Shown here: positions 32,035-39,872 of the stretch, in pieces | Numbering within the stretch: the stretch's first letter is position 1 | Layout: each line of letters opens with the position of its first letter | Origin: Pseudomonadota bacterium | GTDB taxonomy: Bacteria > Pseudomonadota > Alphaproteobacteria > UBA8366 | Direction: 5' to 3' | NCBI GenBank assembly: GCA_036339585.1 | Contig: JAYZAS010000017.1 | Coordinates: forward strand, 1-64,000 | Length of the DNA: 64,000 bases | Position numbers and translations under genes: made by a program | The notes under the pieces: generated by a model | What the model was told of the DNA's origin: nothing | The model's database searches: none | The model's input: the letters and a program-made list of their open reading frames with translations, nothing else

Positions 32035-32174
32035 GACAGGCCTCCGAACCGAATTACTATTTTAATAAGTCTAACGATACGCTGATGACGTTCGCTATTC
32101 AACGCTATTTGTGAGTGTTTGACCATGGATGCCTATCGCACCTTAATGTTATAAGACGTGAATGGGAGGAATAT

Positions 32175-33048
32175 ATGGGTAAAATATTGACTGAAGAGGA
32201 AGTGGCATCTTACGCTTCTGACGGATTTCATTTTCCCGTCCAAGTTATGAATAAGTGTCAGGCCAGATCTTTTAGAACAAAGCTTGAGGATTTTGAGGCG
32301 AAGAACGATAAGAACATACGGCAAAAAATTAAAACAAAAATGCACCTAGTTTTAACATGGATAAATGATTTAGTAACCTTGCCAACAGTTCTTGACTCCG
32401 TGGAGGATGTAAATGGGGCCTGATATACTCTGTTGGAACTCGACTTTTTTTATAAAAGAAGCGCATCATCCTGGGCATGTCACATGGCATCAGGATTCTA
32501 CGTATTGGGGTATGGACTCTCCAGATATTGTTACTGCCTGGATAGCGTTATAATGTTTTTCTATTGAGACGGGACCAATGCGCGTCATTCCAGGTTCACA
32601 CAAATGGCCTCAGTTAGACCATGAGGATACTTTTGCAGAGGATAATCTCTTAAGTCGCGGGCAGAGGTTAGTCGAAGATCCAGACGACACTGATGGAATT
32701 GATCTTGTCTTGGAAGCAGGGGAGATGTCGCTTCACCATGTTGCATTGGTGCATAGTTCATCACCGAATTGGACCAACGAGAGGAGAATAGGCCTTGCCG
32801 TTCGCTACTTACCGCCCCACGTGAGGCAGGTCGGAGGAATTGAAGACACGGCGCTGCTTGTTAGAGGGGAGGATTGTTACAATAATTTCCATCATGAGCG
32901 TCCTCCAAAAGCAGATATGGATCCTGCAGCATTAGAATATCATTCTCAAATCATTCACAATATGGCGAAGGTAAAATTTGCTGGTACGGGTCGTGGTTAT
33001 AGCAAGTGGAAATTATATCAGTGGCTTGCCATAAACCTCTTACCTTAA
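32175..33048 (+). pseudogene. Phytanoyl-CoA dioxygenase family pseudogene (frameshift plus stop)
   Basis: The start ATG follows a good GGGAGGA Shine-Dalgarno. The N-terminal part (L-T-E-E-E-V-A-S-Y-A-S-D-G-F) runs in frame to a GGGG at 32415-32418, where one extra G throws it to a stop at 32421. Shifting frame restores G-P-D-I-L-C-W-N-S, then the iron site W-H-Q-D-S-T-Y-W-G. A TAA at 32551-32553 then interrupts, and the same frame continues with M-R-V-I-P-G-S-H-K, L-H-H-V-A-L-V-H-S-S and a normal C-terminus. The G-run could be an assembly error, but the separate nonsense codon supports real decay. It differs from the pseudogene at 19735 and is a separate family member. Confidence 0.85.
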
Positions 33049-33055
33049 TTATTAG

Positions 33056-33905
33056 ATGACTGTTGCTGTTACTTTTCTAATTCTTGCAGCCGCCGTGATG
33101 CATGCAATCTGGAATGCTTTTATCAAAAGAGCAACAGATAAAGTGGCAATGGCCACATTGATATATGGCTCCGGGCTCATCGTTTCCATTCCCGGAATAA
33201 TTCTTTTCCCTTTACCCCTATTAGAAATTTGGCAATTAATTTTCGTTCATGCTTTCTGTCATTTGATCTATAAGATTGCCTTGGTTGCAATGTAAGAGGA
33301 ATGTGATCTTATTCAGGTATACCCAACTACCAGGGGCATAGCACCATTGATCACAACTTTACTGGCTATTCCTATTATTGGGGAAGTGCCTAACTTGCAG
33401 CAAATAGGCAGCATTATCGTTATTTGCCTTGGTTTGTTAATTTTCGTGTTTGGGCCCGGCACATTTTCTCGAAAACGAATATGGCCGCTTGTTCTGTCCG
33501 GTGTCGCGGGGATTGCACTGAGTATATACCATTGCCGACACAATCGCGATACGCCTTCCTGAAGCCCGGTTTGCATTCATTGAATGGATTTTTTTATTTG
33601 ATGCCCAGACCATGTTTGTGCTTGCTTATTTTCGCCGCGGTAATCATTTAGTGGGACTTCTTTTAGCGGAATGGAAGATTGGCATTTCCTGTGGTATCGC
33701 CGCATTTTTGAATTTTGGTATAGTGTTATGGGCTCTTAGCATTACGCAAATCGGACGTGTGGTAGCGCTTCGAGAGACGAGCGTGGTTTTCACGGCACTT
33801 ATCGGCACATGCTTTATGAAGGAAAGATTTGGCACTAGGCGAATCATAGCTTCCATTGTGATTGCTGGGGGCATCATTGTAATGCATTGCGCAGCGGCGG
33901 GCTAA
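33056..33905 (+). pseudogene. EamA/DMT-family transporter pseudogene
   Basis: Membrane-protein pieces in order reconstruct an EamA-type permease of about 280 residues with about 10 helices. The first part (A-A-A-V-M-H-A-I-W-N-A-F-I-K) ends at a TAA (33293-33295), but the same frame continues with L-I-Q-V-Y-P-T-T-R-G-I-A-P-L. Near 33525 the frame must shift by one to reach T-I-A-D-T-I-A-I-R-L-P-E-A, after which it runs to the natural stop at 33905. It begins 7 bp after the PhyH pseudogene, so the two were probably one operon for uptake or export and oxidation of a metabolite, now both broken. Its stop overlaps the convergent ABC gene. Confidence 0.83.
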
Positions 33906-35218: not shown

Positions 35219-36136
35219 TCAGTGCTTCATAATTGATCTCGATGCAGTGGTAACGCTATATAGCCCAATGGTAATAAGCAGACCTCCCAGTCCATGGTAG
35301 ACTTATAGTGTTTCGTCTAAAAAAATTATCGCCCAAAGTGCGGCAGAGATCGGCACTAGGTGCTGAAAGTACCCAGCGATGTTGGGGCCTACTAATGTCA
35401 ACTGCTTTATTAAACAGAATAAGTGCCAGTGCGGTGGGGGAAAAGCCCAAATATAAAACAACATACAATGATGTTTCTGTAACTGGCATTGTTTGGATGA
35501 AGAGACTTTCAAACAGGTATACCGGGAAGAGCAAAACAACGGCAACAGTCAACACAACAGTCAAAAAGCAAAGAGATGAGTTTGTTTATCTCTTTTTTTT
35601 ACCAAAACTGAATAAACCGACCAAGAAACAGTTGCAGCTAACATTAAAATATCACCAACGCTAAGTGTGACCTCCGACATTGTATCCCATTTGCCACGGG
35701 TGATGATAATGCTTATGCCGATAAAAGATAATGCAAGTCCAAAGCACTGGCGCACATTTAATGATTCCCTGAGGATTACAAAGGCTAACGCCGGAATGAT
35801 AGCGGGCGTTAGTGATAAGGAAAGTGCTGCGCTTACAGCCGTGGCAGATTGGACTGCCCTCTATAATAAACAATTAAAACCGGTAATACCGAATAAGCTC
35901 CCCAACAGAACAACCCACTTTTGCCTTTGGAATGCCGGTATAATGTTGTGCCAATGGTGCCTAGCTATTAACCCAATCAGCAGCAAGGCTGCACAATTTC
36001 TCCAGAATGTAAGTGCAATTGGTCGGAAATCCTCGTAAACGCTGCGGCCAATTGTGATATTGCTTCCCCACATCATTGCGGAGATCATCAGAAGAAGGCA
36101 CGCGAAAATAGGCCTCCCTGGGTGACGTTTATGCAT
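35219..36136 (-). pseudogene. EamA/DMT-family transporter pseudogene (second)
   Basis: An about 305-codon EamA permease with at least four lesions. The start and first helices (L-L-M-I-S-A-M-M-W-G-S-N-I) read cleanly to a TAG at 35861-35863. The same frame then continues with V-Q-S-A-T-A-V-S-A-A-L-S. In the T-run near 35563-35567 one T appears missing, which shifts the frame. Near 35395 one extra base restores it before V-G-P-N-I-A-G-Y-F. A TAA at 35303-35305 interrupts the final helix region before the end at 35219. The two shifts cancel, so the overall length is still a multiple of three. It is divergent from the selenoprotein gene. Confidence 0.82.
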
Positions 36137-36215
36137 AGGAAAATATGGTGGACACAGATATAACGACGTACAAGATAACTAGTAATGAGAAACGGCATTT
36201 CAGAAGAAAACTATC

Positions 36216-37484
36216 ATGGTACGCTTAAAGGATATTCCTTCCGGCGAAAGAGAAATGCTCAAGGAATTACCTTGTCCTGAATTTGAAGACACACCGTTCG
36301 TCAGGATAAACAAACCTCTCTCCCAATGCCGCATTTCGTTGTTATCTACAGCTGCTATACAGAGGCGTGGTGAAAAATTATTTTGGCGTGGCGCAGTAGA
36401 TTATAGGGTTATCCCAGGTGATATTGAGCCAAATGATATTGTGATGTCACATTCATCTGTCAATTTTGATCGGACGGGTTTCCAGCAAGATCTAAATATT
36501 TGCTTTCCGCTTGAGCGTCTTCAAGAGCTCGTTAGTAGGGGTATTGTTGGTTCAGTGGGGGCATTCCATTATTCAGTGATAGGTGGTTCGGAACCGGAAC
36601 AGCTTAAACCTGCTGCACTAGAAATAGCGCGGATGTTAAAAAACGATCATGTCGATGTTCTTTTCCTCGTGCCGATATGACCGAAATGTACGCGCGCCGT
36701 TGGCGGGCTTTCACATTACTTCGAGCAGGAAGGAATTGCTACCTTGCAGATAAGTCTCGTGCGATTACATTCTGAAAAGATCCGGCCACCACGGGCTCTC
36801 TGGGTGCCGTTTGAGTTAGGGCGACCGTTGGGTGTTCCAAACGATCCCAAATTCCAGCATCGCGTAATTTCTGCCGTCCTTGATCTCCTTAAGCACGATG
36901 GAGGTCCGGTCTTAGAGGACTATCTGGAGGAAGTGCCAGACGGAGAAGCGAAAGACAGGCAGGCTGGGATGAATGGCCAATTTTGTCCAATTAGTTCAAT
37001 CTCAACACGTTCAAAAGATAGCGATCTAATGAAGGCATTTGAAGCTGAGATTAATCATCTCGCGCCTTGGTATGAAATGGCTGTTAACCAGCGTCGTCGA
37101 ACTACGGTTGGCGTTAGCGAGCTCGAGATTTTAGAGGCTGCCCGTTTCTTAGCAGCAATGATCGAGAGCGGGGATCCCCCAGTTCCTCGTAATGACCTTG
37201 AACGTGGACCTATGTTGAAACTGTGTTGTGAGGACCTCACCTCTTTTTACGGTGAAGCCATATCAGTCCAGCCTGGAATGAAAGCTTCTATCGCAGTAGA
37301 AAACTGGATTTGGGGCCATACAATTCTGGGGGAAACGATGTGGAGAATCCGCGAGATTAATCTGGAATCGAAGGATGATTTTATGCGTTACCATGCCCAG
37401 CGCTCGCTAGTTCCAGACCGGCAAATACACCTTCGAGAGGAGAATCCGAGGATTTTTAGGAGTTGGTCTTTGGTTAAAAAATAG
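36216..37484 (+). CDS. Selenoprotein, glycine/sarcosine/betaine reductase B (GrdB)-family, Sec at codon 155
   Basis: One 422-residue frame runs from ATG 36216 to the stop at 37482-37484, interrupted only by TGA at 36678-36680. Reading TGA as selenocysteine gives V-P-I-U-P-K-C-T-R, a U-x-x-C redox motif at the position where the GrdB-like family carries its active residue. The upstream part has the family stretch V-N-F-D-R-T-G-F-Q-Q-D-L-N (82-94). The downstream part has P-P-R-A-L-W-V-P-F-E-L-G-R-P-L-G. A hairpin with a G-U-U loop starts 11 nt after the UGA (separate entry). Characterised GrdB enzymes are anaerobic Stickland reductases, and the role in this apparently aerobic organism is unknown. 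The Sec insertion genes (selA, selB, selC) are not in the window. A TTG start at 36744 for a separate second ORF is much less likely. Confidence 0.85.
36692..36708 (+). promoter_or_regulatory. Candidate bacterial SECIS hairpin
   Basis: Directly after the in-frame UGA, CGCC (36695-36698) pairs with GGCG (36702-36705) around a G-U-U loop. A G-G mismatch and two further pairs (GC/GC) extend it below. The loop begins 18 nt after the UGA and has G as its first base, as published models of bacterial selenocysteine insertion elements require. The hairpin lies inside the coding region and must also encode T-R-A-V-G-G. Confidence 0.6.
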
Positions 37485-37685
37485 GCTGATGTTTAAATTC
37501 GCTACCCCCAGTGTGGCACTAAAGAGTAATGGTAGTGCGGTTGTCATTTGAGACTAGAAACAAAAAGTTAAACCGTGCTGTTATACTCATTAATTTAAAG
37601 TTTAGATTGTGAACGGTAATCAAAGTTCTATGCGTAAAAATGTTGAGAATCGTAATTCATTTTTTAGGGGCCTTATGAAGTAGGG

Positions 37686-39872
37686 ATGGGCGAAGATATT
37701 GAGAATATTCGAAAATCGGGTGATTTTTTGGTCTCGTGGCATCCAGAAAAACGCTACAAACGCCCGTTGTCCGAAGGCGGCATTCCATTTGCATTGAAGA
37801 GTGATTTCAAGCCTGCAGGTGATCAGCCGGACGCGATTAACGAATTGGCATCTGGTTTGAGGGCTGGTGAGCGCGATCAAGTTTTGCTTGGTGTAACCGG
37901 CTCCGGGAAAACCTTTACCGTTGCACAAGTAATACAGGAGTTACAGCGGCCCGCCATAATGCTGGCCCCAAATAAGACGCTGGCAGCTCAACTTTATGGT
38001 GAGATGAAAGGATTTTTCCCCGATAATGCGGTTGAATATTTTGTCTCCTACTATGATTACTATCAGCCGGAAGCATATGTCCCGCGTTCGGATACATATA
38101 TTGAGAAGGATGCATCAATTAACGAACAAATTGATCGTATGCGCCACGCAGCAACTCGTGCTCTTTTGGAGCGAGACGATGTAATTATAGTTGCATCAGT
38201 GTCATGTATTTACGGCATCGGCTCGGTGGAGAGCTATTCGGAGATGGTCGTATCGTTGCAAGTTAGCCAACACATCAATCCTCGTGACTTATTGAAAGAG
38301 TTTGTGGCACTGCAATACCGACGTAATGATGGAAATTTCCACAGAGGCACTTTCCGTGTTCGAGGTGATACGATTGAGATTTTTCCGGCTCATTATGAAG
38401 ATCGTGCTTGGCGTATTGGTTTTTTTGGTGATGAAATAGAAAGTATCCACGAATTTGATCCGCTGACCGGAGAGAAGATTAATACGCTAGAAAAGGTTCG
38501 GATATATGCAAACAGTCATTACGTGACGCCAAAGCCTACCTTGAGTCAAGCCATGAAGGGTATTAAAAACGAGCTTCAGGGCCGCCTGGACCAGCTGCAC
38601 GGATTATCAAAGCTTTTAGAAGCACAAAGACTCGAGCAACGCACAATCTTTGATCTTGAAATGATAGAAGCAACTGGGTCCTGTGCGGGAATTGAAAATT
38701 ATTCGCGTTATTTGACAGGTAGAAATCCTGGAGAGCCTCCCCCAACACTTTTTGAGTATATACCCGACAATGCAATATTAATTGTAGATGAGTGTCATGT
38801 CACAGTACCTCAAGTAGGGGGAATGTTTCGTGGTGATTATAATCGAAAATCTACTCTTGCTGAATATGGCTTCCGTTTGCCCTCTTGCGTTGATAATCGG
38901 CCCTTAAAATTTGAAGAATGGGACGCTATGCGCCCCCAAACAATTTTCGTCTCCGCTACCCCTAGCCCGTGGGAATTAGAGCGCACGGATGGTGTGATAA
39001 TCGAACAGGTGGTGCGGCCGACCGGTTTGATTGATCCAGTCTGCATTGTCCGCCCCATCCAAAGGCAGGTTGATGATCTACTTGCTGAATGCAGAGGTTG
39101 CGCTGAACGGAACCAGCGTGTCTTGGTAACGACCCTAACAAAAAGGATGGCAGAAGATCTTACTGAATATATGACCGAAGCAGGCCTCAAAGTCAGGTAT
39201 CTCCATTCCGATGTTGATACCCTTGAGAGGATCGAGATTATCCGTGACCTTCGGCTCGGAATTTTTGACATACTTATTGGTATAAATCTTTTGCGGGAAG
39301 GATTAGACATTCCAGAATGCGCTCTGGTCGCAATTTTGGACGCAGATAAGGAAGGTTTTTTAAGATCTCGTACGTCGCTTGTGCAGACAATTGGTCGTGC
39401 CGCTCGTAATATTGACGGCCGCGTGATCCTTTATGCTGATACCATTACTAATTCGCTGGAGTCTGCCATTAGTGAAACAAACCGGCGCCGCAAGAAGCAA
39501 GAAGCATATAATAAAAAATATGGTATTACACCGGAGAGTGTGCGGAAAGAGATCGGCGACATTCTAGATAGTGTTTATGAAAAAGATCACTTGACCGTAG
39601 ATACGGGCGACCCGGAACACGCTCATCTGATCGGGATGGATTTAAAAGGCTATATCAGCGAACTTGAGAATAGAATGCAGGCTTTCGCAGCGGATCTGGA
39701 ATTTGAAAAGGCGGCACAGCTGCGGGATGAGATCTCTAGGCTTGAGGCTTACGATCTCGATATGCCAGCCGATACACTGCCCATAGATCCAAATATTGCT
39801 GCTGAAATTAAATCTGTCTCGCGCGATATTTTGCCCAAGAGCCGAAAGCGCCAAAAAAAGCGCCGAAACTAA
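37686..39872 (+). CDS. uvrB: UvrABC system protein B
   Basis: UvrB is the damage-verifying helicase-like subunit of nucleotide excision repair. The 728-residue protein has Walker [10 protein letters not shown] at about 67-75, the beta-hairpin [12 protein letters not shown] (about 119-130) and a DEAD-type motif [10 protein letters not shown] at about 363-372 (most UvrB have D-E-S-H). The helicase motif G-R-A-A-R-N is at about 570, and the C-terminal UVR domain (A-A-Q-L-R-D-E-I-x-x-L-E) near 680-695 binds UvrC. The lysine-rich tail is normal. uvrC is 3.1 kb downstream with the two enolase-superfamily genes between. Confidence 0.96.

Follow-up and report, generated by a model that had tools for sequence, protein, structure and literature searches.

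A putative long-form PrdB/GrdB-like selenoprotein in an alphaproteobacterial genome lacking the pyruvoyl subunit

We assessed a gene of 422 codons (36216..37484, forward strand) in a 64,000-nucleotide stretch of an alphaproteobacterial contig (hereafter the window), and its apparent stop is, on comparative sequence grounds, almost certainly a selenocysteine codon. The gene is very probably a working selenoprotein gene, with a predicted product in the PrdB/GrdB superfamily, of which it represents a long form. Translation confirmed the earlier note's claim of a single frame interrupted by one TGA: the only internal stop is the TGA of codon 155 (Sec155, 36678..36680), it falls in a U-P-K-C motif completed by Cys158 (codon 36687-36689), and the frame ends with a TAG at 37482-37484. 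Under translation table 11 the same region is listed as two open reading frames, 36216-36680 (154 aa) and 36744-37484 (246 aa, from a later start), and routine annotation splits or misses genes of this type. Selenoproteins of this kind are already known; the apparently new part is the long, partner-less subfamily.

Conservation of the in-frame TGA

Homologues were sought in 98 related genomes, which yielded many matches, nearly all with one internal TGA. In an alignment of 57 long-form sequences from related genomes (a few of them duplicate or partial), the Sec column was occupied by TGA in 56, by CGA (Arg) in one and by Cys in none, while Pro156, Cys158, Thr159 and Cys257 (36984..36986) were invariant (57/57). 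The single CGA homologue (L070:2103-3353, reverse strand) is otherwise open, and reflects either a real loss or an assembly error. The earlier note had proposed position 155 as the column to compare, and the alignment bore out selenocysteine there: two annotated clostridial PrdB genes carry their own TGA at the aligned position, and short alphaproteobacterial relatives, from genomes without selA, carry TGC (Cys). Across the 98 genomes, selA was present in 24 of the 26 with a TGA homologue (Fisher p 2e-18, the genomes being related and not independent); the two TGA genomes without selA are 64% and 77% complete, and three genomes with only stop-free relatives also lacked it.

Relatives with 88-89% protein identity have the TGA at the same place, which rules out a sequencing error of one assembly. 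Constraint also continues downstream, as the codons after the TGA, compared with those of an 89%-identical sister (L012), gave a pN of 0.067 against a pS of 0.348, implying purifying selection past the TGA. These observations bear on the alternative in which a nonsense mutation created the TGA and left the gene a young pseudogene, like those around it. Real pseudogenes do adjoin it, including a DMT/EamA-type transporter that lies divergently and directly upstream (36178-35228, reverse strand) with 4 internal stops. A second DMT-type transporter (33056-33899, forward strand) carries a frameshift that divides it between two frames, and also has one stop. A phytanoyl-CoA dioxygenase-like gene, named by eye from its sequence (32115-33048, forward strand), is broken into two open reading frames. 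The contrast drawn in the earlier note, between several lesions in neighbouring pseudogenes and one TGA in this gene, proved sound, since the pseudogenes are real and their lesions are absent from a sister genome, in which the counterparts of the two transporters are an open frame (L041 5004-5969) and an intact gene (L041 2839-3690), respectively. However, 56 of the 57 homologues, which come from many genera, retain the TGA and selection persists beyond it, so the pseudogene reading has a negligible probability. Conservation of the TGA rules out both a sequencing error and a nonsense mutation.

The window genome (2.79 Mb in 25 contigs, rated 100% complete) also encodes paralogues of the gene, in the form of a tandem pair with one TGA each (L049:6436-8878, reverse strand) whose neighbourhood is common to several relatives. 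Up to 11 family matches, most with one TGA, were found in one related genome (e.g. G028), which is an unusual expansion. In a phylum-wide sample, the long form was found in 0 other of the 398 genomes drawn, with a single partial, stop-free match, and the long form therefore seems to be confined to the same order and a few other alphaproteobacteria. The named relatives were Rhodospirillaceae, Rhodospirillales and other alphaproteobacterial MAGs, and record names together with published surveys suggest that they are marine.

Selenocysteine machinery and the hairpin downstream of the TGA

All four components that the earlier note had listed for a search were recovered from the genome, although selB was identified by where it lies and how it reads. 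A selA gene on contig C10 scored 588 bits, over its cut-off, and is directly followed by a 647-residue open reading frame that reads as SelB. After selB lies a tRNA-Sec (69.8 bits; gathering score 47) to which ARAGORN assigned the anticodon tca, and selD was detected on contig C18 (311 bits). On gene content, the cell is thus able to insert selenocysteine. Close behind the tRNA-Sec is a further selenoprotein gene of the UGSC type (L010:11315-11800, forward strand), with its TGA in AIGD-U-GSC.

A SECIS-like hairpin follows the TGA of the window gene, with the core GC-g-CGCC[GTT]GGCG-g-GC at 36692..36708 (forward strand). Its pairing begins 11 bases past the TGA, and its loop (36699-36701) starts with G, 18 bases past it. 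Among 55 distinct sequences, 297 of 330 pair cells were kept (90%), compared with 110-160 (33-48%) for slid pairings; the loop reads GTN in all 55, and one pair changes from C-G to T-A in four. Because the hairpin lies inside conserved coding sequence, part of this pairing is forced by the protein, so that synonymous constraint constitutes the stronger evidence for a SECIS element. Codons 159-161 show almost no synonymous choice (Arg as CGC in 49/53, Ala as GCC in 52/57), and the codon entropy of stretch 158-164 was the second lowest of 93, beside its own overlapping neighbour. Folding energy was rejected as proof of a SECIS element: that of the hairpin is ordinary (z -0.9 to -1.3), as is the energy averaged over the 57 downstream stretches, relative to the rest of the genes. 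An Rfam search over 36000-37700 returned chance matches only. The hairpin inferred in the earlier note is therefore present, but its energy alone is unremarkable and its support is comparative; judged in this way, its place just past the UGA and the G at the start of its loop are as expected of a bacterial SECIS element. On strong comparative support, UGA codon 155 would be read as Sec by SelB and Sec-tRNA, directed by this short hairpin 3' of the UGA.

Family assignment and protein architecture

The earlier note had placed the protein in the GrdB family. Membership of the superfamily held, and assignment to GrdB proper did not: among NCBIfam models, PrdB (TIGR04483) ranked first (2e-25, 89.6 bits), followed by GrdH, GrdF and GrdB, with GrdB (TIGR01917) scoring 25.3 bits against a cut-off of 602. 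The equivalog cut-off of TIGR04483 (300 bits) was likewise not reached, and the gathering cut-off of Pfam GRDB (PF07355) was narrowly exceeded (24.2 vs 22 bits). NCBIfam models were matched by all 47 aligned members. In a tree, the long form was one group, with clostridial PrdB and the Cys forms outside it, albeit with joins that involve long branches, as the tool warned.

Two domains were delineated. The PrdB-like alpha/beta domain spans residues about 26-225 (36291..36890, forward strand; TIGR04483 match 25-225) and is modelled by AF2 as a strand, a loop, UPKC and a helix. It is followed by an all-helical C-terminal domain (residues 262-422; 36999..37481, forward strand) that does not occur in the two clostridial PrdB compared. 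In the AF2 model of the whole protein (pLDDT 88.5), UPKC opens a helix that comes after a strand, and the helical C-terminal domain follows; this domain was predicted alone with a pLDDT of 91. Fold searches with the whole model gave unspecific Rossmann-like matches (best Z 8.2), and the C-terminal domain alone had no Foldseek match at E<=0.001 and nothing convincing otherwise (best Z 4.8). No Pfam family was assigned to the C-terminal domain of the window member, searches of the PDB by single sequence and profile found no match, and neither did a phage search. A PADLOC match to DpdC (E 0.032 over 38 residues) was taken as noise.

We then considered the pyruvoyl subunit (PrdA/GrdE). A search of the window genome with PF09338 was empty, although the same model recovered PrdA and GrdE-type proteins from clostridial plasmid records, and a PrdA protein query had no match in the genome. 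In one such record, the PF09338 (PrdA-type) frame directly before prdB (L094; NZ_CP007453.1 258999-260039) is absent from the PLSDB gene table. A GRDA search of the window genome was also empty, albeit one that had no working control. The genome encodes a heme-copper oxidase, and this, together with the missing PF09338 subunit, implies that the textbook anaerobic reductases do not fit. As judged from sequence, the protein is not a canonical PrdB: its NCBIfam score lies under the cut-off, PF09338 is absent from the genome, and it has an extra C-terminal helical domain.

Possible function and comparison with known systems

No pathway could be read from the neighbours, as they vary among genomes and no gene consistently accompanies the family; syntenic neighbours look housekeeping (uvrB, and for the paralogues murJ and trpS, identified by eye). 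In the predicted structure, Sec155 would open a helix, with Cys158 three positions further along, corresponding to the place of the catalytic Sec in clostridial PrdB. Sec155 may attack the substrate to form a selenenylsulfide with Cys158, which a cellular thiol system would then restore. The likeliest reading, to which we give about an even chance, is that the product is a soluble, stand-alone reductase that runs this cycle without a pyruvoyl (PrdA/GrdE) subunit, and the helical C-terminal domain and invariant Cys257 may, speculatively, replace that subunit. The substrate is a tentative first guess by analogy with relatives, and could be a small amino acid, a betaine-like compound or another nitrogen compound. 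Taken as a whole, it is possible, but less than probable, that the family forms a lone-acting Sec branch of PrdB/GrdB in oxygen-respiring marine bacteria, in which the C-terminal domain and Cys257 substitute for the pyruvoyl subunit in an undescribed reductive cleavage.

Two other functions were weighed against a stand-alone reductase. A true subunit of D-proline (or glycine, sarcosine or betaine) reductase with the clostridial reaction might be expected from the rank of TIGR04483 as best family at 2e-25, the Sec column common to both and a GRDB Pfam score just over its cut-off. However, a score (89.6 bits) below the 300-bit cut-off, the missing PF09338 subunit (with a control that worked), the empty but uncontrolled GRDA search, an oxygen-respiring gene content and the extra domain of the window protein together make this improbable. 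The main rival has the selenoprotein serve in thiol or peroxide defence, as a general UxxC oxidoreductase that is not substrate-specific, and we assign it a minority likelihood. It would be in keeping with a modelled UxxC at a helix start, an aerobic setting and the absence of a fixed pathway among the neighbours, whereas superfamily members of known function cleave amino-acid C-N bonds, and several diverged copies per genome suggest different substrates.

Seawater has yielded selenoproteins labelled PrdB since 2005, and these are among the commonest there (PMC1088965, PMC2398784): Sec-containing PrdB ranked third by frequency among the families of the Sargasso Sea survey, with 42 genes (PMC1088965), and 235 PrdB genes were counted in the Global Ocean Sampling set (PMC2398784). 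PrdB with UxxC also appears in reviews of 2022 and 2026 (PMC9312934, PMC13188914). The earlier note was right in calling the physiological role unexplained; Sec-containing PrdB is not new to oxygenated seawater, having been counted in these surveys. Excerpts of all four papers contain no description of a long form or a missing partner. The marine 'PrdB' of the surveys probably includes the long-form family, a reading that follows from their labels and not from a comparison of sequences. Should marine members act without a pyruvoyl subunit, D-proline reductase would be the wrong label for them, and marine bacteria would have a widespread selenium-dependent reaction that awaits assignment. The function can be tested by assay, given the conserved motif, the lack of a partner and the presence of several paralogues per genome.

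Among known systems, PrdB of Peptoclostridium and Terrisporobacter (TIGR04483) shares the alpha/beta domain, a Sec encoded by TGA at the corresponding column and a Cys three residues on, at about 26-30% identity to the window protein. It differs in its length (237-241 aa), in having no C-terminal domain and in adjoining prdA, whereas the window genome has no PrdA-type gene. GrdB, GrdF and GrdH of glycine, sarcosine and betaine reductase (PF07355) are weakly matched in their C-terminal half; the window protein does not have their N-terminal half, and no GrdE-type subunit was found in its genome. The marine 'PrdB' of the Sargasso Sea and Global Ocean Sampling surveys (PMC1088965, PMC2398784) resembles it in being PrdB-like, in its UxxC and in coming from the surface ocean, but was labelled by homology, and the excerpts describe no long form and no missing partner. 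The short alphaproteobacterial 'glycine/sarcosine/betaine reductase selenoprotein B family' has a homologous domain with CPxC at the Sec column, and differs in its Cys for Sec, its length of about 300 aa and its other C-terminus.
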